A DNA stretch of 64,000 nucleotides from Meiothermus sp. Lineage in GTDB: Bacteria; Deinococcota; Deinococci; Deinococcales; Thermaceae. Where the stretch lies: the NCBI RefSeq assembly GCF_026004115.1, contig NZ_BPIM01000001.1, positions 806,001-870,000 on the forward strand, given 5' to 3'. Below the pieces are notes generated by a model, which saw only the letters and a list, made by a program, of their open reading frames with translations, searched no databases and was not told the DNA's origin. Made by a program: the position numbers and the translations under genes. This document shows positions 48,709-64,000 of the stretch, piece after piece; position 1 is the stretch's first letter, and every line of letters starts with the position of its first letter.

Positions 48709-48860
48709 CGACTCCCCGCTCTGAAGAGCGGGGCTTCGCGGTTCTCACGGGACGGCCCTTGCCGTACCCATCCCCGCAGGCTCCGTCCGAGCCCATCTGC
48801 GGTCGGGTGCACGCCCCAACCGTGCCAGGACGTTGATGGCCGCAGCCACATCCCGGTGAA
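48709..48860 (-). ncRNA. Predicted omega/reRNA of TnpB
   Basis: Overlaps the tnpB 3' end and runs through the right-end hairpin CCCCGCTC-TGAA-GAGCGGGG (48714-48733) into flanking DNA. In IS200/IS605 elements this region encodes the guide RNA of TnpB; the guide is read from the host flank, here the complement of the last bases of pckG (about 48689-48708). Position is inferred from the family; no transcript evidence. Confidence 0.4.
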
Positions 48861-49905
48861 GAGAGGCCCCACAAGCGGGGCAGGTGAACTCCCTGACCCA
48901 CAAGGGCCTCTTCTCCCGGTGCCCACACACCGGGCAGTCCTGGCTGGTGTGTTTGGGATCAACCCCCACGACCCGCCTACCAGCTTCTTCCGCTTTGTAG
49001 GCGAGGATTGCAAGAAACTGCGCCCACCCCGCGTCCTGCACCCCTTTGGCAGTGCGGGAGCGGGCCAGGCCGATGACGTTCAGGTCTTCGTGGACGACGG
49101 TGCCATACCGGTTGACCAGGTTCCGGGCCAGCTTGTGGTGGAAGTCTTTGCGCTGGTTGGCTACTTTGCGGTGCAGCCGGGCCAGGCGCATTTTGAGCTT
49201 CCTGCGTCGGTTGGAACCCCGCCGCTTCTTCGTCACGAACCGCTGGGTGCGGGCTAGTTTGGCCTGCGCCTTCTGGAAGTACCGAGGGGCCTCGACCATC
49301 TCCCCCTCCGAGGTGACGAGGAAGTGGGGGTTGGTGCCCAGGTCTATCCCGATGGCCTCTTGGTTTTCAGGAAGCGGTTGAGGGTCTACTTCGCAACTGA
49401 AAACGATGTACCAATGTTCGCCTTCCCGCTTCAGCGTGGCGGTCTTCAGTTTCCCCTCAAGGGGCCGGTGCAGCTTGACCTTCACCGAGCCGATGCCGTG
49501 GAGGAGCACCCGCTTCCCGCCCTCCTGAAGCTTTACCCCGGTGGTGCTGGCCTGGGGGAAGGTGAACGAGTCGTAGCGCCCCTGCCCCTTGAAGCGGGGG
49601 TATCCCGCTTTCTGTCCCGCCTTAACCCTACGGAAGAAGCCCTGGAAGGCTTTGTCCACCCGCTCAATGACGTTCTGCAAGACCTGGGAATGAATGTGCT
49701 TGTACTCCGGCAGGTCAGCCCGTATCTCTGGCAAGGAGCGCTTCTGTTCGTAGAAGCCCACCGTCCTCCCGGCCTTCTTGTAGGCATCCCTACGCTCTTG
49801 CAAAGCCGCGTTGTAGAGGTGGCGGCACAGCGCGAGGGTGCGCTCCAGGTCGCGGGCCTGGGGCTGGGTGGGGTACAGGCGGTACTTGAACGCCTTTCTA
49901 GTCAT
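48745..49905 (-). CDS. tnpB: TnpB, RNA-guided nuclease of IS605 family
   Basis: 386 residues. N-terminal KYRLYPTQPQARDLERTLALCRHLYNAAL, wedge/REC part, then the RuvC-like domain: Asp in GIDLGTNPHFLV, Glu in VVHEDLNVIGLARS, Asp in LHRDVAAAINVLARL. The zinc-finger pairs are CPVCG and CPACG. All catalytic acids are present, so the protein could be active. TnpB cuts DNA matched by its omega RNA next to a TAM, restoring the element after excision. Its ATG overlaps the tnpA stop by eight bases. Confidence 0.93.
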   Translation of the reverse strand: MTRKAFKYRLYPTQPQARDLERTLALCRHLYNAALQERRDAYKKAGRTVGFYEQKRSLPEIRADLPEYKHIHSQVLQNVIERVDKAFQGFFRRVKAGQKAGYPRFKGQGRYDSFTFPQASTTGVKLQEGGKRVLLHGIGSVKVKLHRPLEGKLKTATLKREGEHWYIVFSCEVDPQPLPENQEAIGIDLGTNPHFLVTSEGEMVEAPRYFQKAQAKLARTQRFVTKKRRGSNRRRKLKMRLARLHRKVANQRKDFHHKLARNLVNRYGTVVHEDLNVIGLARSRTAKGVQDAGWAQFLAILAYKAEEAGRRVVGVDPKHTSQDCPVCGHREKRPLWVREFTCPACGASLHRDVAAAINVLARLGRAPDRRWARTEPAGMGTARAVP

Positions 49906-50314
49906 CGTCCACCTGATGCTTGCGTTGCAACTCGATGTAGCGCTGAATAGTCTGGGCTGAGATATTCCCGGCGCTGCCCACGTAGAAGGAGGGCGTCCAC
50001 AAATGACCGCCGCCCTTGCCCCGCCGTAGCTTCGGGAACTCTTGCAGGATGCGCCGAGCCGATACGCCTTTCAGAATCTTCGCCACGTCCGAGGGCGGCC
50101 ACTTGGGCGGCACGGAGAGGAACAAATGCACGTGGTCAGGCATGACCTCCATCCCCAGCACTACCCAGTCCCTCATCAAGCACGTCTCCCGCAACACCTG
50201 CATCAGCCGTTCGCGCACCTCGCCAAAGAAGGCATGTCTGCGGTACTTGGGGGTGAACACCAGATGGTAATTCAGGTTGTAATAGCTGTGACGTGTGGTG
50301 CGCTCTTCAAGCAC
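49898..50314 (-). CDS. tnpA: TnpA, IS200-type tyrosine (HUH) transposase
   Basis: 138 residues from GTG 50314 (GTG 50320 also possible). YNLNYHLVFTPKYRRHAFF, the HUH motif in MPDHVHLFLSVPP, and catalytic Tyr in IQRYIELQRKHQ. Length and motifs are those of active Y1 transposases that act on single-stranded ends through the subterminal hairpins. Overlaps tnpB. Confidence 0.92.
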   Translation of the reverse strand: MLEERTTRHSYYNLNYHLVFTPKYRRHAFFGEVRERLMQVLRETCLMRDWVVLGMEVMPDHVHLFLSVPPKWPPSDVAKILKGVSARRILQEFPKLRRGKGGGHLWTPSFYVGSAGNISAQTIQRYIELQRKHQVDDD

Positions 50315-50467
50315 ATGCACATGATACCACAAAATGACCACCCACCATGCTATGTGCTCCTTCGGAGCACGTGGGGGAGTCCATGTATCCCCGCTCTGAA
50401 GAGGCGGGGGATTATAGCTCCCCCACACCCCCTCTTTCCTCTAAACCTCAGGTGTAACGCTTCATAG

Positions 50468-56315: not shown

Positions 56316-57779
56316 GTGCGCTGGCACAATCTATACCGTCGCTGGGTCTTACAAAGGCACTTCCGCTTTGCCAAAGAGCACCTGGGCGATTATTTTTTTG
56401 ATGCCCTTACGGCCTATGCCCTGGGCCTAGGCAAGCTCAACATTGCCGAGGCCAAAGAGGCCGCCTGGGCTTTGAGCGAGCTGCGCAAAGACCCCATTCC
56501 AGGTTTTACTGGTCAGCTCGAGGATATTTTTTTTACCATAGACTTTCATCTGCGCGAGCGCTACGGTCACGAAATTGCAGGGGCCCTGCGGCGCGGCCTC
56601 TCCCGCAACGACCTCGACCTCACCGTGTTTCGGGCCTACGCCTGTGAGCGGCTGCTGCGGGTGCTAACGGCTTTGTCCGACCTGCGGCGGGAGTTGCTGG
56701 GTTTAGGACAGACCCACCGGCAAACCCTTTTGACCGCCTACACCCACCACCGCCCGGCCCAACCCACCACCCTGGGGCACTATCTGACCGGGGTGGAAAA
56801 CCTGCTCTCGCGCGACTATCAGCGCCTGCGCTCGGCCTTCCAGACCACCGACAAGTGCCCCCTGGGCGCTTCGACCCTGGCGGGCAGCCCCTATCCGGTA
56901 GACCGCAAGGCCCTGGCCCAGTGGTTGGGGTTTGGGGGCACCTTAGAACACACCTACGACGCCATCGCCGCAGGCGACTGGGCCCTGGAAATTGCCTATG
57001 CCCTGGCGGGTATGGCCACCAGTTTGTCGCGTCTGGTGGCCGACCTCTTATTCTGGGCGGAGCAGGGTGGCTTCCTGGTGGCCGAAAAAATCAGCCAGGG
57101 GTCTTCCATCATGCCGCAGAAGGTAAACCCGGTGGTGCTGGAGCACGTGCGGGGTTTCCTGGCCGAACTGATGGGCGGCCCCACCACCCTGGGTCATCTC
57201 AACTACAGCACCCCGTTTGGCGATGTGAACGACCACGGGCCAGCGGTACTCGAGCCCCTATACAACCTGTTTTACGCTGCCGAAGGGGCTGTAGCACTTC
57301 TGCGGGTGGCCCTACAAGAAAGCCGCTTTGTACCCGAGGTGCTGGCCCAGGGCCTGCGCGACCGCAGCGTGCTGGCCTCCGAGCTGGTAGATGTGCTGGT
57401 CTCGGGTAGGCATCTCTCGTTGGCCGAGGCCTACCCCAAGGTACAGGGCATGTTGCGCGAGCTGAGCAGCAAGGGGCGCACGGTGGCCGAGCTGGGCCTG
57501 GACGACCTGCAAAGCCACCTGGGGTTTGGCGACCCCGAGCTGCTGCAAGCCCTGGAGCCCGAGCGCTTTATCGCCCGTCGGCGGGTGCTGGGCGGGGCCG
57601 CTCCGGAGGCCCAGGCGATTTACCTGGACTACGCCCTGAACCGGCTGAAGCTCGAGCGGCTAGAGCTAAAGGAACTCAAAAGCCGACGCCGCAAAGCCCT
57701 TCGAACCCTGGCCCAGGAGCCTTTGAGCCTGCTGGGTGAGCCCTCTCGAACCGGCCAGACCCTGAAGGCCGCCCCGTAG
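56316..57779 (+). CDS. ArgH-like lyase (fumarase/aspartase superfamily)
   Basis: 487 residues from GTG 56316 (GAGGAGG upstream, four bases away). Superfamily signature GSSIMPQKVNPVVLEHVRG is intact; AYTHHRPAQPTTLGHYL and PLGASTLAGSPYPVDRKAL are like argininosuccinate lyase. The N-terminus departs from ArgH: it lacks the WGGRF start and opens NLYRRWVLQRHFRFAKE. It may be a divergent argininosuccinate lyase or another lyase; a separate true argH elsewhere would support the latter. Confidence 0.75.
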   Translation: MRWHNLYRRWVLQRHFRFAKEHLGDYFFDALTAYALGLGKLNIAEAKEAAWALSELRKDPIPGFTGQLEDIFFTIDFHLRERYGHEIAGALRRGLSRNDLDLTVFRAYACERLLRVLTALSDLRRELLGLGQTHRQTLLTAYTHHRPAQPTTLGHYLTGVENLLSRDYQRLRSAFQTTDKCPLGASTLAGSPYPVDRKALAQWLGFGGTLEHTYDAIAAGDWALEIAYALAGMATSLSRLVADLLFWAEQGGFLVAEKISQGSSIMPQKVNPVVLEHVRGFLAELMGGPTTLGHLNYSTPFGDVNDHGPAVLEPLYNLFYAAEGAVALLRVALQESRFVPEVLAQGLRDRSVLASELVDVLVSGRHLSLAEAYPKVQGMLRELSSKGRTVAELGLDDLQSHLGFGDPELLQALEPERFIARRRVLGGAAPEAQAIYLDYALNRLKLERLELKELKSRRRKALRTLAQEPLSLLGEPSRTGQTLKAAP

Positions 57780-58058: not shown

Positions 58059-59459
58059 ATGCTCGAGACCCGTCTGCAACCTCACCGCGAATACCTGCTG
58101 GCCAACATGCCCGGCCAGAAGATGTTTTTGGCCCTCAAGGTGCGCCCCGAGGCCCAGGCCGCGGGCGCTCGGCCCCAACTGGCCATTGCCTTTGTGGTGG
58201 ATACCTCCGGCTCCATGCGCGAGGTGGTGACCGAACCCAAAGAGCGCACCGGCCAGAGCGTGCGGGTGGATGGCAAGGAGTATGAGGTCGTACGCGGCGC
58301 CAAGAGCAAGATGGATCTGGTGGTAGAGGCGCTGCAAAACCTGCTCCATAGCCGCGAGCTAAAACCCTCCGACCGCCTGGCGCTCATCAAGTTCGACGAC
58401 CACGCCAGCGTGGTACAGCCCTTTACCGACGCCGCCCACAAGGCCCGCCTGATCGCAGCCGTGGAGCAACTGCCCCAGTTCTCCGGCGGAACCCACATGG
58501 GTGCGGGAATGCTGGAAGCCCTGAAGCAACTGCAAAAAGAGGCGGGCAGCCGCCGCATGATTCTGCTGACCGACGGGCAGGCTTTCGACGAGCCCCTCGT
58601 CGAGCAGGCCGCCCAAGCGTTGGCCGAGGCCCACATCCCCGTGACCGCCATTGGTGTGGGCGACGACTGGAACGACGATCTTCTTACCGACATCACCGAC
58701 CGCACCCAGGGCAGGCCCTTCCACATAGTGCCCGATACCCAGAACCCGCTGCCCCCCAGCCTCAGGGCCACCGAGCTACCCAGGGCCATTTTGGGCGAGC
58801 TGGAAAACGCCGCCAGCGAGGTGATTACCCACATTGGACTATCGGTGCGAACCGTAAAGGACGTGACCCTGGATCGGGTCACGCGGGTCTACCCCACCCA
58901 GGCCGAGGTAGACCTGAAGGCCAAGCCCTACCCCCTGGGCAACGCGGCCAAGGGCGACTGGACGGTGTTTATCCTCGAGTTCACCCTACCCGCCCGGCCC
59001 CCGGCCCGCATTCGCATCGCCCAGATGGGCCTGACCTACGAAGTGCCCGGCCAGGGCTACCGAGGCGAGGTGCCCCCCATGGACGTGGTGGTGGAGTTTA
59101 CCACCGACGAAACCCTGGCGGCCCGCATTGACCCCGAGGTGATGCAATGGGTGCAGCAGCGCAACATTGAGCAGCTAATCAAGCAGGCCACGGTGGAGGC
59201 CCGCACCGACCCCAGCAAGGCCGCCAAGACGCTGGAACTGGCCCGCAACCTGACCGTCAAGCTGGGCAACACCGCCATGACCCGCGCCCTCGACCAGGCC
59301 GTAGGCGAGCTTAAGAGCAGCAAGACCATCAGCATCGGCACCGCCAAGACCATCAAGATTGGGGCCAAGACCCAGGTGCTCAAACAAGGGCCCGAGGCCG
59401 CGCCGGGTAGGGAGGATCTGCCCTCCGACGAAGAAATTCGCAAGATGACCGGCGCCTAA
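58059..59459 (+). CDS. VWA-domain protein (TerY-like)
   Basis: 466 residues, soluble, no signal peptide. A VWA domain spans about 40-240 with MIDAS DTSGSM, Thr in SGGTHMGAG and Asp in LLTDGQAFD. An all-beta domain (about 250-360, LPARPPARIRIAQMG) and a helical end follow. GAGATTTATG shows a Shine-Dalgarno-like GGAG seven bases before the ATG. First gene of the kinase/FHA/phosphatase operon. In Ter-type systems a similar VWA protein (TerY) joins a kinase and a PP2C phosphatase. Confidence 0.85.
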   Translation: MLETRLQPHREYLLANMPGQKMFLALKVRPEAQAAGARPQLAIAFVVDTSGSMREVVTEPKERTGQSVRVDGKEYEVVRGAKSKMDLVVEALQNLLHSRELKPSDRLALIKFDDHASVVQPFTDAAHKARLIAAVEQLPQFSGGTHMGAGMLEALKQLQKEAGSRRMILLTDGQAFDEPLVEQAAQALAEAHIPVTAIGVGDDWNDDLLTDITDRTQGRPFHIVPDTQNPLPPSLRATELPRAILGELENAASEVITHIGLSVRTVKDVTLDRVTRVYPTQAEVDLKAKPYPLGNAAKGDWTVFILEFTLPARPPARIRIAQMGLTYEVPGQGYRGEVPPMDVVVEFTTDETLAARIDPEVMQWVQQRNIEQLIKQATVEARTDPSKAAKTLELARNLTVKLGNTAMTRALDQAVGELKSSKTISIGTAKTIKIGAKTQVLKQGPEAAPGREDLPSDEEIRKMTGA

Positions 59460-59500
59460 CTTGGAGCGGAGGCGCTCTGCCAAGCCCCTCTGCTTTGGAT

Positions 59501-61387
59501 ATGGAACGTTGTCCCTACTGCGCTAGCCCCGTACCTACTAATGCCGCAATCTGTCCGACCTGTGGCATGAGCATTGCCATGCCGGGTGAACAACATCTGC
59601 CCGTAGGAACCCGGCTCAAAGGTGGGCGCTACACCCTGGGCAAGGTGTTGGGGCAGGGTGGTTTTGGGATTACCTACCTGGGAGCCGATACCCAGGAAAA
59701 CCGCCCCGTGGCCATTAAGGAACTGTTTCCCGAGGGGTCGTCACGCCGCGCCAACTCGCGCAATGTAGTACCGCCTACCAGCCTGCTGGGGGGCGGTTTT
59801 ACCGAAACCATGGAGAAGTTTGAGGACGAGGCCCGCGTGATGAGCAAGTTCAACCATCCGGGTATCGTGCGCGTATTCGATATTTTCGAGGAAAACGGAA
59901 CCGCGTATCTGGTGATGGAGTTTCTGAAAGGCCAGACTTTGGGCAAGCGGATCGAGAAGCAGGGCAAGCTGCCAGCCCGCGAGGTGCAGGATATTGCCCT
60001 CAAGCTGCTGGATGCCCTGGAGGTGGTACATGGCGCGGGGATGCTCCACCGCGACATCAAGCCCGACAACGTATTCTTGCACCAGGATGGCCGGGTGGTG
60101 CTGATCGACTTTGGCTCGGCAAGGCAGTTTGCCCAGGGCAAAACCCTCCAGCACACCCGGCTGGTTACACCGGGCTACGCGCCTTTGGAGCAGTACGGCA
60201 CCGCCGGCAAGTTTGGCCCCTATACCGACCTCTACGCGCTGGGCGCTACGCTTTACCATGCGCTGATGGGCGTGGTGCCCCCTGCCGCTACCGACCGGGT
60301 GCAGAGCAATCAGCCCCTGCGGCTGCCACGCGAAACCCCCGATGGCCTCGAGCAGGCCGTCAACCGGGCCCTGGAAATCCGGGTGGACCGGCGCCCCCAG
60401 AGCGTGGCCGAGTTTCGGGCTATCTTGCTGGGCCAGCGGCAGCCCACCTCCACCGCACGGCCCACCTCCACCGCCCCGTCTGCAACCGGCAATCTTTCGA
60501 TCCGGGTCAGCCCACCCCAGACCGCCGTGCGGGTGCAAGGCCCCAACAATTTTCAGCAGGTCGTGCAGGGCAATACCGACCTGGAAGGGCTCCCCTCGGG
60601 CACCTATACCCTCTATGCCGACGCCCAGGGTTTTCAGCCCCAGCAGGTCAAGGTACAGCTCCGGGCCGGGAGCGTCCTCGAGGCCCGCTTCACCCTGGCC
60701 CCCGTGCGGCGCCCGGCCCCAGCCCCTCGACCAGCGCCCCAGCCCACCCCCGCACCCCAACCCATCCCAACGCCCATGCCTGGGCCCCAGCCCAGCCCCA
60801 CCCCCAGTCCTGCACCTGCACCACTGGCTAGTAGGCTCTACAACCTGAGGCTCAACCTGCTCACGCTGGCAGCGTTTCTAGCCTTGTTTTATGTGTTCTT
60901 CGAGGTGCGCCCTGCCACCTTGCAAACCTTCTTGCAGCCCCTCGACGAACAGCTCCAGCGCGACTTCAACACCTGGGTGCCGGGTTATCCTGGGGTCTTT
61001 GCCTGGCTGCGGGCGGGGTTTTATAGCGCGATTGTGCTGGGGGTTTTCTACACCCTGAGTTTTCTGGTGACCCAGGTGGTCTGGCTTTTGCCGCTGCTGG
61101 TGTTGGGGGGGGCAGGCTTGCTCTTGTACAGAAAACTGATCTCGCTCGAGCAGGGCGTCCTTGCCGCGGTTGTTCTGGGCGCGGTGTATCTGGGGGTGCT
61201 GCTCCTGGAGCGTCTGAGCATCCCCCTGGCGGTGGTGCTGGGCCTGGTGGCGGCTTTTCGCTGGGCCGACCCCGCCCGGGGAGAAATTATGGGGCCCGGT
61301 GGTCTGGCGGTCGCCGTGCTGATTCTAAGTTTTGGTGGTATCGTTCGCTTGACCCGCGAGCGGCAAAGAGAGGAGCGTAATCCATGA
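59501..61387 (+). CDS. Zinc-ribbon Ser/Thr protein kinase with PEGA and TM regions
   Basis: 628 residues from ATG 59501 (TTG 59495 possible). N-terminal zinc ribbon CPYC...CPTC, kinase domain about 40-300: Gly loop GQGGFGITYLG, VAIKELF with the catalytic Lys, HRDIKPDN, LIDFGSARQF, GYAPLEQYG. After a Ser/Thr/Pro linker comes a PEGA-like domain (SIRVSPPQTAVRVQG..SGTYTLYADAQGFQPQQVKV), a long Pro-rich linker and about four C-terminal TM helices. All catalytic motifs are intact. Probably phosphorylates itself, the FHA protein or VWA proteins. Confidence 0.9.
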   Translation: MERCPYCASPVPTNAAICPTCGMSIAMPGEQHLPVGTRLKGGRYTLGKVLGQGGFGITYLGADTQENRPVAIKELFPEGSSRRANSRNVVPPTSLLGGGFTETMEKFEDEARVMSKFNHPGIVRVFDIFEENGTAYLVMEFLKGQTLGKRIEKQGKLPAREVQDIALKLLDALEVVHGAGMLHRDIKPDNVFLHQDGRVVLIDFGSARQFAQGKTLQHTRLVTPGYAPLEQYGTAGKFGPYTDLYALGATLYHALMGVVPPAATDRVQSNQPLRLPRETPDGLEQAVNRALEIRVDRRPQSVAEFRAILLGQRQPTSTARPTSTAPSATGNLSIRVSPPQTAVRVQGPNNFQQVVQGNTDLEGLPSGTYTLYADAQGFQPQQVKVQLRAGSVLEARFTLAPVRRPAPAPRPAPQPTPAPQPIPTPMPGPQPSPTPSPAPAPLASRLYNLRLNLLTLAAFLALFYVFFEVRPATLQTFLQPLDEQLQRDFNTWVPGYPGVFAWLRAGFYSAIVLGVFYTLSFLVTQVVWLLPLLVLGGAGLLLYRKLISLEQGVLAAVVLGAVYLGVLLLERLSIPLAVVLGLVAAFRWADPARGEIMGPGGLAVAVLILSFGGIVRLTRERQREERNP

Positions 61388-61971
61388 TCGTGTGTAAGGT
61401 ATGCGGAACCGAGAATCCCGATGGAACCCAGTATTGCGAAAGCTGCGGGGTCGAACTCACCCCAGCAGCCACCCCAGAACCTGGGGTAACTGAAGCTCAG
61501 GCGCCCGAGCCCGTGGTAAACGAAGCTCAGTCGCCTGAGCCCGTGGTAACCGAAACACCGGCTGCACCCGAAGTACCCACCGAACCCGCGCAGCCCGAGG
61601 CTCCCACCGCCCCGCCGCCCGCCCCCCTCTTCCGCCCGGCCAAACTGGTCTTCAAGCGCTTTGGCGCCCTTACCAACGAAAGCATTCCCCTGCAAGGCCC
61701 GCGCCTGGTGGTGGGTCGTTTTGATGCCTCCACCGGGCCGGTGGAGATTGACCTAACCGGCGTGCCGGGCGCCGAGAACATCTCGCGTCGCCATGCCGAA
61801 CTGTTTTTTGAGGGGGTCTGGAAGGTACGCGACCTGGGCTCCACCAACGGCGTGTTCATCAAGCGGGCCGGTCAGGAGGCCTACTCCCCCCGCCTGGTGG
61901 AACCCGCCGAACTCAAGGACGGCGACGAGATTGCCTTTGGCAATGTAATTGTGGTCTTCCAGGAGGGCTAG
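61384..61971 (+). CDS. Zinc-ribbon FHA-domain protein
   Basis: 195 residues. N-terminal zinc ribbon CKVCGTENPDGTQYCESCG; an acidic Pro/Glu linker with repeated EPVV(N/T)E; FHA domain about 95-195 with LVVGRFDAS, SRRHAEL and LGSTNGVF, so the phospho-threonine-binding loop residues (Arg, Ser-Arg-Arg-His, Ser/Asn) are all present. The start overlaps the kinase stop by ATGA. It would read the kinase's phosphorylated threonine. Confidence 0.92.
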   Translation: MIVCKVCGTENPDGTQYCESCGVELTPAATPEPGVTEAQAPEPVVNEAQSPEPVVTETPAAPEVPTEPAQPEAPTAPPPAPLFRPAKLVFKRFGALTNESIPLQGPRLVVGRFDASTGPVEIDLTGVPGAENISRRHAELFFEGVWKVRDLGSTNGVFIKRAGQEAYSPRLVEPAELKDGDEIAFGNVIVVFQEG

Positions 61972-61973
61972 CC

Positions 61974-63758
61974 ATGCCGGACGAACGCTCCGGGTCGGAG
62001 CAGGGCACTCCCAGGGCTTACGACGCGGAGGATATCCAGGAAGTGGGTCGGGCCGAGGAAGAGGGCATGGGACCCCCCTCGAGCCAGCCTCCCCCTGCGT
62101 CAGAGGTGCCGCTGGATACGCTGGATTTGCAGGAAATTGCCCAGGCCGAAGCCGAAGGCATGACCCACGCCGATATGGGCCTGCCCCCCGAGGAAGAGCT
62201 GGCAGACCCCGCTAAAGAAGCCCCCCTTTCTGGGCTCGAGGGAGACTACCTCGAGGAAACCGTACTACCCTCCACCGTGGAAAACTACGCACTTACCCCC
62301 GGCTCCACTCACACCTGGGGCTCCCTGACCCTTCAGGTGGAAAGCCCCTACCGGGCAAGCTGGATGTGGGCAACCGAGGGGGGCCAGAGGCTTCTGGTAG
62401 GGCCCAAACAAGATGGCCGTCTGCTGGCTGGGCTGGACAACCACCGCCTGCTGCCCCGGCTGATCTATGCGGGCCCCGAAGGCATGGCCGTCGAGGCGGT
62501 AGAGGGCGAGCCGATAGGCCGCAAACTCTCGCTGCCGGCGGCCCTGGGGGTGGTGCAGCCGTTGGCCCAGCTGGTGTACTTCCTCGAGCTCAAGGGCTTG
62601 GCACTGGTAGACCTCGAGCCCCAGGCGCTCTGCCAGACCAACCAGGGGCTGCGGCTGGCCTTGCCGCCACGGCTGGCCCGCTTGGGCGAGCCAGCGCCCC
62701 AGGTCTGGCGGCAGGGCTACACCCCCCCCGAGGTTCTGGCCGAAGCAACCGTGAGCAGCAAGACCGGGGTGTACCTGCTGGGGGCTTTGTTGTTCGAACT
62801 TCTCACCGGCACGGCGCTGCCGGTGGAGGGGCCCAGCGAGTTGCTGCTCTCGAGCATCCCCATCCCGGGCGTGCCCCAGGCGCTGGCCCAGATGCTGGCC
62901 CCCCCCGGGGAGCGGGCAACCCCCAAGCAGGCTTTGGCCCTGCTCAAAAAGCTTTCGCACCCCAGCGAGGTGGAGGTGGTGCTCGAGCTCGGCGAGGCCA
63001 CCAGCGTGGGCCTTAATCCCAGCCGCCATTACAACCAGGATGCCTATGCCTACCGCCTCGAGCGCGTCCAGTCGGAGTTTGGTCGCACCCTCTTACTCCG
63101 CGCCTGCGTAAGTGACGGCATGGGCGGCATGGCCGCCGGCGAGCGGGCCAGCCAGGCCGCCGTCGAGACCTTCATTGCGGGCCACCCGCCCCATCCCATT
63201 GACGACCCCCAGGCCCAGTCCGACTGGGGGGTGCGGCTGGTCTGGGCTGCCAATCAGGCCGTGCTCGAGACCCTGGCGGGCCTGGACGGGGGCTGCACCC
63301 TGAGCGGGGTGATGCTCTGGGGAGCCCGCTACACCGTGGCCCACGTGGGTGATACCCGCGTTTATCTCTGGCGTCAGGGCCAGCTCCAGCAGCTTACCCG
63401 CGACCATTCGTTGGTAGCCGCCCTGGTGGCCAGCCAGATGATTACCCGTGAGGAGGCCATGCGGCACCCCGACCGCAACCAGGTTTTGCGTTCGCTGGGC
63501 AACCTGCGCCAGCCGCAGGGGGGCTATGTGGAAACCCTCGAGGCCACCACCGGGCAGGTTTCAGGGGTGCTCGAGCCCGGCGAAGCCCTGGTGCTTGTCT
63601 CCGATGGGGTCTGGGGCGAGGTAACCGAGGCCCAAATGGCCGAGATTTTGAGTCAGGCAGGTAGCTTCCAGGCCGCCGCCGAAGCCCTGGTGCAGCAAGC
63701 GCTGGCCGCAGGCGCCCCCGACAACGCCACCGCGCTCATCGTCTGCCGCCGGGCTTAG
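61974..63758 (+). CDS. Pseudokinase-PP2C phosphatase fusion
   Basis: 594 residues. A Glu/Ala-rich N-terminus with two similar segments (DAEDIQEVGRAEEEGM and DLQEIAQAEAEGM) is followed by a degenerate kinase-like domain, about 130-340: LVDLEPQALCQT takes the place of HRDxxxxN and there is no DFG, yet GYTPPEVL and GVYLLGALLFELLTG match the APE region and the F helix. The PP2C domain, about 340-594, is complete: NQDAY, VSDGMGGMAAGERAS, AHVGDTRVYLW, LVSDGVWG, PDNATALIV. Only two bases after the FHA gene. It likely removes the kinase's phosphates. Confidence 0.88.
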   Translation: MPDERSGSEQGTPRAYDAEDIQEVGRAEEEGMGPPSSQPPPASEVPLDTLDLQEIAQAEAEGMTHADMGLPPEEELADPAKEAPLSGLEGDYLEETVLPSTVENYALTPGSTHTWGSLTLQVESPYRASWMWATEGGQRLLVGPKQDGRLLAGLDNHRLLPRLIYAGPEGMAVEAVEGEPIGRKLSLPAALGVVQPLAQLVYFLELKGLALVDLEPQALCQTNQGLRLALPPRLARLGEPAPQVWRQGYTPPEVLAEATVSSKTGVYLLGALLFELLTGTALPVEGPSELLLSSIPIPGVPQALAQMLAPPGERATPKQALALLKKLSHPSEVEVVLELGEATSVGLNPSRHYNQDAYAYRLERVQSEFGRTLLLRACVSDGMGGMAAGERASQAAVETFIAGHPPHPIDDPQAQSDWGVRLVWAANQAVLETLAGLDGGCTLSGVMLWGARYTVAHVGDTRVYLWRQGQLQQLTRDHSLVAALVASQMITREEAMRHPDRNQVLRSLGNLRQPQGGYVETLEATTGQVSGVLEPGEALVLVSDGVWGEVTEAQMAEILSQAGSFQAAAEALVQQALAAGAPDNATALIVCRRA

Positions 63759-63769
63759 TCCGATTTGAG

Positions 63770-64000
63770 ATGAGACCCACCCCCCGCACCTTTGCCCTCC
63801 TGGGTGCTGCCGGCGCACTGCTGGGCGGCCTCCTGGGGGAGTTGCTGATTCCCCGGCCCAACCCCCAGGCAGCCACTTCCCAGCCAGCAGCCATTGCTCT
63901 GGTAATCGATGCCTCGGGCAGCATGAACGAGCAGAACAAACTGGCCGAGGTCAAGCGGGCCGCGCGGGACTTTGTGCTCCGGCAAGACCTGCAGGTCACC
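63770..64000 (+). CDS. Second VWA-domain protein, 5' part
   Basis: ATG 63770 opens a frame to the end of the window (77 codons). N-terminal hydrophobic segment (FALLGAAGALLGGLLGELLI), then VIDASGSMNEQNKLAEVKRAA, the MIDAS motif of a VWA domain. So it is membrane-anchored and faces outside or inside depending on orientation. It continues the operon begun at 58059. Confidence 0.85.
   Translation, partial: MRPTPRTFALLGAAGALLGGLLGELLIPRPNPQAATSQPAAIALVIDASGSMNEQNKLAEVKRAARDFVLRQDLQVT

Follow-up and report, generated by a model that had tools for sequence, protein, structure and literature searches.

The window analysed here is a stretch of 64,000 nucleotides from Meiothermus sp., covering positions 806001-870000 of a 3.27-Mb contig; positions beyond 64000 are given as window-equivalent. 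Its 3′ end holds an operon that the initial annotation described as five adjacent plus-strand genes that may encode a related but distinct circuit for phospho-signalling, with a kinase anchored in the membrane and an adaptor FHA protein, and that it compared with the TerY-P triad and with type VI secretion system (T6SS) pathways. The five genes are real, and the operon extends past the window end to window-equivalent 65488. The idea of a distinct circuit of this make-up has also held up, while its nearest characterised relative had been overlooked: this is the archaeal ArnA-ArnB pair, and the kinship supplies a concrete mechanism. The features of the operon are the following:

58059-59459, plus strand: VWA1, ArnB-like, 466 amino acids, with a vWA domain carrying a metal-ion-dependent adhesion site (MIDAS), flanking beta-strands, a four-helix bundle and a Thr-bearing tail (Pfam, predicted model, structure comparison)
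59331-59375, plus strand: VWA1 residues 425-439 with T428, T431 and T438, a segment proposed from its conservation for phosphorylation and FHA docking
59418-59456, plus strand: VWA1 residues 454-466, the conserved C-terminal end LPSDEEIRKMTGA (conservation)
59501-61387, plus strand: Ser/Thr kinase, 628 amino acids, with N-terminal CxxC/CxxC, a Hanks kinase domain, a CarboxypepD_reg/PEGA-like stretch (under the Pfam cut-off) and a hydrophobic C-terminal part
61384-61971, plus strand: zinc ribbon-linker-FHA protein, ArnA-like, 195 amino acids (Pfam, profile match)
61974-63758, plus strand: pseudokinase-PP2C phosphatase, 594 amino acids, with an N-terminus of low confidence in the model
63770-64000 in the window, ending at window-equivalent 65488, plus strand: VWA2, 572 amino acids, with a transmembrane (TM)-like stretch, a vWA domain, further TM-like stretches and two FHA-like domains

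The tight spacing claimed for these genes was confirmed, with 41 bases between VWA1 and the kinase, a 4-bp overlap of the kinase and FHA genes, and gaps of 2 bp and 11 bp before the PP2C and VWA2 genes, respectively. The kinase starts at the ATG at 59501, with a TTG in frame at 59495. Pfam bore out the domain calls (VWA 2.5e-23, Pkinase 3.4e-41, FHA 1.7e-11, PP2C 1.4e-10), the two MIDAS motifs are present (DTSGS and DASGS) and the kinase motifs are intact (GQGGFG, VAIKE, HRDIKPDN and IDFGSA). Zinc ribbons had been assigned to the N-termini of both the FHA protein and the kinase; the former exceeds the Pfam cut-off (27.2 versus 25 bits), while the latter stays under it (19 versus 25) with both CxxC pairs present, at residues 4 and 18. 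VWA2, truncated by the window edge, carries its two FHA-like domains C-terminally in addition to its hydrophobic TM-like stretches.

The AlphaFold2 model of VWA1 (predicted local distance difference test 90.8) consists of the VWA domain, beta-strands on either side of it and helices at residues 359-383, 385-402, 405-421 and 426-438, and thus has the ArnB-type fold of a vWA domain with a MIDAS in a split beta-sandwich plus a four-helix bundle. Structure comparison (VIA) returned 4fx5 as the top match (Z 36.3, 388 residues, root-mean-square deviation (rmsd) 2.4), with ArnB at Z 32.1 (367 residues, rmsd 2.8) and 5a8j, the ArnB paralog vWA2, at Z 28.5 (347 residues, rmsd 3.1); all three span the model from residue 1 to at least 440. 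Behind them, at Z 23.3, came a TFIIH subunit (185 residues) and ITIH1 (324 residues, 3-430, rmsd 6.3). Foldseek, like VIA, placed 4fx5 above ArnB, and Sec23/Sec24 and ITIH1 matched much of the VWA1 length less closely. When a VWA1 profile was compared with PDB sequences, ArnB (8s05, E 6.5e-18) and its paralog (5a8j, E 1.1e-13) were both found, and a mussel protein with two VWA domains outranked ArnB. The best full-length structural match, 4fx5, is the Catenulispora acidiphila vWA protein, which is called ArnB-like in PMC12852372; that paper names ArnB-shaped prokaryotic proteins (Catenulispora vWA, YfbK) and states that this shape mostly has no tie to multi-phosphorylation.

ArnA itself ranked first when the FHA-family profile was compared with PDB sequences (E 7.8e-16), with an alignment that takes in the zinc ribbon and continues into FHA. 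The window FHA protein has the make-up of ArnA, namely an N-terminal four-Cys zinc ribbon, a linker and a C-terminal FHA domain. CxxC..CxxC was present in 32 of the 39 FHA proteins, and the reader motif GR..SRxH..NG in 30, including that of the window.

Among the 47 kinases, 43 carry the N-terminal CxxC..CxxC, and the catalytic loop reads HRD in 38 and HQD in nine. Hydrophobic stretches after residue 448 suggest that the window kinase is membrane-anchored. The C-terminal parts of the kinases differ among the phyla tested, being CarboxypepD_reg/PEGA-like and hydrophobic here, TPR in L065 and cytochrome-c-like (under the cut-off) in L057. The pseudokinase part that had been assigned to the PP2C protein is supported by a weak Pkinase match (E 0.0092), with catalytic-loop and DFG residues degenerate in all 38 PP2C proteins, and by matches of the kinase hidden Markov model (HMM) to the same part in four other loci (L062, L064, L068 and L074; 31-41 bits over ~150-180 residues). 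In the VIA comparison of the PP2C-protein model the PP2C domain fills the match list, and the pseudokinase call rests on sequence. Residues D356, D381, D544 and D583, which we take to be metal-binding, are invariant in the 38 PP2C proteins. The N-terminus of this protein, most of it modelled with low confidence, also contains the short motif form DxQExxxAExEGM twice (residues 20-32 and 51-63; window 62031-62162).

Conservation in VWA1 extends to its tail. In ten VWA1s found through the PP2C protein, and so not selected for the tail, 10 of the 15 positions at 425-439 and 10 of the 13 at 454-466 are invariant, compared with 152 of the 466 in the whole protein (hypergeometric 0.0064 and 0.0012, respectively, for segments picked after viewing the alignment); helices 359-421 are also rich in invariant residues (31/63). 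The motif KT[ILV][KR][ILMV]G, in a pattern that allowed K or T first, occurs in 45 of 46 VWA1s. All 12 loci from a search that made no use of the tail carry a looser tail pattern; these are not 12 new genomes, since L103 and L106 share their genomes with L076 and L064, respectively, and others may likewise repeat earlier loci. The sole exception among the 46 is a second VWA1-like gene (L060:7166-8539) without KT in its tail, which recalls ArnE, an archaeal ArnB paralog without T353 and T363.

The conserved Thr motif lies in the last helix of VWA1, at what may be the place of the phosphorylated segment of ArnB. The full VWA1 profile puts ArnB 325-376 gap-free on the VWA1 tail, T431 is aligned with ArnB T354 and position 440 with T363, and the tail HMM scores the ArnB segment at 9.8 bits, which one of 2000 shuffles reached. 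In the archaeal protein this segment holds phosphosites (PMC6509490); it is phosphorylated by ArnC and bound by the FHA domain of ArnA (PMC6509490, PMC12852372). Phosphorylation of T353, T363 and T375 is nearly complete after 5 min, and ArnA binds less well at early times when ArnB carries T353A/T354A or T359A/T363A (PMC12852372).

Conservation of the gene order is seen in relatives and reaches well past them. The searches gave 55 loci, from which five duplicates and the weak L091 were removed before counting; the remaining 49 include three pairs whose two loci are fragments of the same genome (L040/L051, L042/L054 and L043/L053). The four-gene core of VWA1, kinase, FHA and PP2C is more than a chance grouping: 33 of these 49 loci have it contiguous on a single strand. 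The loci come from Deinococcota, Cyanobacteria, Chloroflexota, one Rubrobacter metagenome-assembled genome (MAG) and further bacterial MAGs, with Meiothermus, Calidithermus, Deinococcales, Chloroflexi/Chloroflexia, Thermomicrobiales and Thermobaculum among the taxa represented. Among the other 16 loci are some cut at contig ends, two without a detected FHA gene (L060 and L090) and some, such as L066, where VWA1 stands apart. VWA1-FHA-PP2C-kinase is the commonest order (20 loci), kinase-VWA1-FHA-PP2C and VWA1-kinase-FHA-PP2C also occurring, and VWA1 lies next to FHA, or separated from it by one kinase gene, in 35 of the 49 loci. VWA2-like genes are near the core in some loci only. An expanded module (G001, L045:334-17167) holds four kinase genes, VWA1, FHA, PP2C and VWA2 on one strand over ~17 kb, with an opposite-strand open reading frame of 526 amino acids among them.

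Orthologues of the PP2C protein above 200 bits were present in 14 of 111 genomes of the phylum and in 7 of 18 of the genus. Scanning with the VWA1 alignment yielded 41 loci, all of them strong but L091; because a tail peptide pattern was used, this set is biased. With VWA1 residues 1-370 as a tail-free query (E<=1e-30), hits were obtained in 10 of 146 genomes of the cyanobacterial phylum of L076 and in 2 of 151 genomes of the phylum of a Chloroflexia MAG (L064), both sets being samples of larger groups. Given these counts per phylum, the module is widespread but patchy.

In the archaeal pair, the zinc finger or ribbon of ArnA loosely holds unphosphorylated ArnB; once phosphorylated, ArnB has a looser helical bundle and is bound tightly by the FHA domain (PMC12852372), while PP2A dissociates the complex (PMC7472852). 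We read the window operon as encoding a self-contained bacterial phosphothreonine switch of ArnA-ArnB type that brings along its own kinase and PP2C, and put the probability of this at roughly 70%. The ArnA-like FHA protein and the ArnB-like VWA1 would form a loose complex, in which the membrane-anchored kinase would phosphorylate threonines of the last helix and tail of VWA1, namely T431, probably with T428 and T438, and T440 in most other genera sampled. The helix bundle would open and the FHA domain would bind the phosphorylated tail, giving a tight complex and a downstream signal, until PP2C stripped the phosphates and reset the switch. The pseudokinase fused to PP2C may dock the phosphatase to the complex, and VWA2, which only some relatives have near the core, may receive the signal at the membrane. 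Gene content, conserved linkage, domain make-up, predicted fold and tail conservation are what the analysis shows, while we infer phosphorylation, FHA binding, reversal by PP2C and output. If true, writer, reader, substrate and eraser occur together in one multi-phylum cassette with key residues named, which could be rebuilt from four purified proteins. To our knowledge, many bacterial FHA, VWA, PP2C and zinc-ribbon kinase genes are without assigned partners.

Several observations weigh against this reading. Pfam ArnB_C (PF18677) had no match at VWA1 in 11 genomes, in a search that gave four sub-cut-off matches elsewhere in those genomes and one genome over the cut-off among 14 controls. The tail correspondence amounts to only 2.0 bits within the full-length match, and because a tail-only profile found no matches in the PDB at E<=10, the tail argument rests on position in the full-length match and on the shuffles. 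T431 is aligned with T354, not with the early site T353; position 440 is Val in the window VWA1 and in all seven Meiothermus VWA1s, and Thr in most other genera sampled; and the second-Thr pattern is missing in 8 of 46 VWA1s, these being the seven from Meiothermus and the L060 paralog. In ArnB itself, single Thr-to-Ala pairs left motility unaltered (PMC6509490). On the reader side, nine of the 13 cyanobacterial FHA proteins, and none of the other 26 among the 39, have lost the GR arginine and carry GI (eight) or GV (one), which argues against canonical phosphothreonine binding there, and the reader in those cyanobacteria may work differently. VWA1, PP2C and the kinase are present in L060 and L090 with no FHA gene detected, and the kinase and FHA protein could have other partners. 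The enzymes also differ from the archaeal ones: a PP2C with a pseudokinase takes the place of PP2A, and the kinase is a zinc-ribbon membrane protein, whereas ArnC has OB and TPR-like parts (PMC12852372), neither of which Pfam matched in the window kinase. Because ArnB_C, an ArnC-type kinase and PP2A were tested for with negative outcome, we do not file the module as an ArnA-ArnB member.

Mycobacterial FHA proteins dock on an autophosphorylated kinase, and the window FHA protein might do likewise, with VWA1 as a separate scaffold or sensor. The matches of the FHA protein to FhaB and OdhI models (both weak and under the cut-off) and to GarA and OdhI structures point this way, as does a Thr-rich kinase linker; we nevertheless consider this arrangement unlikely, since the FHA protein finds its best match in ArnA, zinc ribbon included, the Thr tail of VWA1 is conserved, VWA1 lies at or near the FHA gene in 35 of 49 loci, and the kinase C-terminal parts vary between the phyla tested. 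It also seems improbable that the module provides the regulatory component of a conflict system, anti-phage or kin-directed, like TerY-P or the GTPase-centric systems. Such a role would suit the patchy spread in three phyla, and the kinase matches the PADLOC models mad6 and PD-T4-6; these matches, however, cover the kinase domain, while the PP2C protein has weak ones and VWA1, FHA and VWA2 have none at E<=0.01. Zinc-ribbon (ZnR) kinase, PP2C and vWA genes are linked to some GAP1-N2 systems (PMC7159879, eLife 2020), and DO-GTPase1/2 genes over the Pfam cut-off adjoin the module in three cyanobacterial neighbourhoods (L073:2027-3731, L076:459-1385 and L079:2574-4287); a VWA protein and ARC6-IMS proteins are also among the cyanobacterial neighbours. 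According to PMC7159879, such GTPase systems are nearly completely absent from cyanobacteria, and Pfam analysis of the cyanobacterial neighbours c0, c2 and c3 gave no match naming a GAP1 domain. In this genome neither DO-GTPase2 (0/1) nor TerD (0/1; found in 2 of 14 control genomes, TerC not being searched) was found, and none of the eight Pfam-tested downstream proteins is effector-like.

Threonine phosphorylation in T6SS uses a logic of kinase, PP2C and FHA, and PpkA has a kinase-fused VWA. A pathway gating a secretion system in this manner shares its part list with the operon, and the FHA protein weakly matches TagH (under the cut-off) while structure comparison of the PP2C domain gave T6SS PppA as one of its matches. 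This explanation, already disfavoured by us, is very improbable: VWA1 resembles ArnB and not the VWA of PpkA, the sheath protein VipB was not found in this genome (0/1; found in 1 of 14 control genomes), and no secretion protein is among the eight downstream proteins.

In some other genomes the module lies beside type IV pilus genes. Gene clustering placed a PilB-type ATPase gene, divergent and beside VWA1, in five MAG loci (L056, L057, L058, L060 and L090), and prepilin-like genes lie downstream of the kinase on the same strand in two others (L071 and L088). Type IV pilus genes thus adjoin the module in 7 of 8 such MAG loci, which look related and do not represent seven independent events; the calls were made by Pfam for the L057 ATPase and the L071 prepilins and by clustering elsewhere. 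In archaea, ArnA and ArnB are reported to repress archaellum genes and in S. islandicus also DNA-damage genes. A tentative and rather doubtful extension is that one phosphothreonine switch is common to Archaea and Bacteria, its bacterial cassette form governing type IV pilus-class surface machines as ArnAB governs the pilus-related archaellum. A conserved protein of ~175 amino acids (c5, six loci) occurs at pilus-adjoining loci, and had no Pfam match in the two copies tested.

At the flanks of the window operon, the Lyase_1 family gene 5′ of VWA1 (56316-57779) is probably outside the module, because no more than a few close relatives keep it there (cluster c4, six loci including one duplicate). 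On the other side, an alpha/beta hydrolase gene begins 31 bases after VWA2, followed on the opposite strand by a glycine-betaine-type ABC transporter set. The eight downstream proteins are, by Pfam, the hydrolase, ABC-transporter parts, dehydrogenases and a Na/Ca exchanger. Ter, MoxR and secretion proteins are thus lacking among them, in line with the initial annotation, which had seen no Ter or secretion genes in the window (TerC and MoxR were not searched genome-wide). Further upstream, an IS200/IS605 transposon pair lies on the minus strand (48745-50428), comprising a Y1_Tnp protein and an OrfB_IS605 protein whose TNB domain is Cas12f1-like.

No description of this bacterial cassette was found among the matches listed in the literature searched, which was mostly without subscription papers. 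With the TerY-P triad (PMC11090510) the operon shares a VWA, a PP2C and a zinc-ribbon Ser/Thr kinase; the zinc ribbon is C-terminal there, whereas here it is N-terminal, an FHA protein is added and the PP2C is fused to a pseudokinase. The triad can occur without tellurite-resistance genes; the link was rejected on the position of the kinase zinc ribbon and the lack of TerD in the genome, and the operon is not a standard TerY-P or T6SS-associated cluster. The third theme of the GAP1-N2 GTPase-centric systems (PMC7159879) likewise has linked ZnR kinase, PP2C and standalone vWA genes, but that theme is stated to be actinobacterial and comes with DO-GTPase/GAP1, and no FHA is named for it; a DO-GTPase link was rejected for this genome for want of a DO-GTPase2 match. 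The T6SS pathway is alike in its kinase, PP2C and FHA logic and differs in its VWA, and that link was rejected on the lack of VipB.

The closest likeness is to ArnA-ArnB of Sulfolobus (archaellum regulatory network; 8s05, 5a8i, 5a8j), with which the operon has in common a zinc ribbon-linker-FHA partner and a vWA protein with a split beta-sandwich, a four-helix bundle and a Thr-bearing last helix. The archaeal pair is likewise acted on by a Hanks kinase and a phosphatase (PMC6509490, PMC12852372, PMC7472852). Unlike there, the kinase and phosphatase here share an operon with the partners, a second VWA protein is added and the system is bacterial, and the conserved VWA1 end has no counterpart in the ArnB segment compared (337-377). 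If our reading is true, ArnA-ArnB, studied so far in Sulfolobales, falls inside a bacterial-archaeal family.

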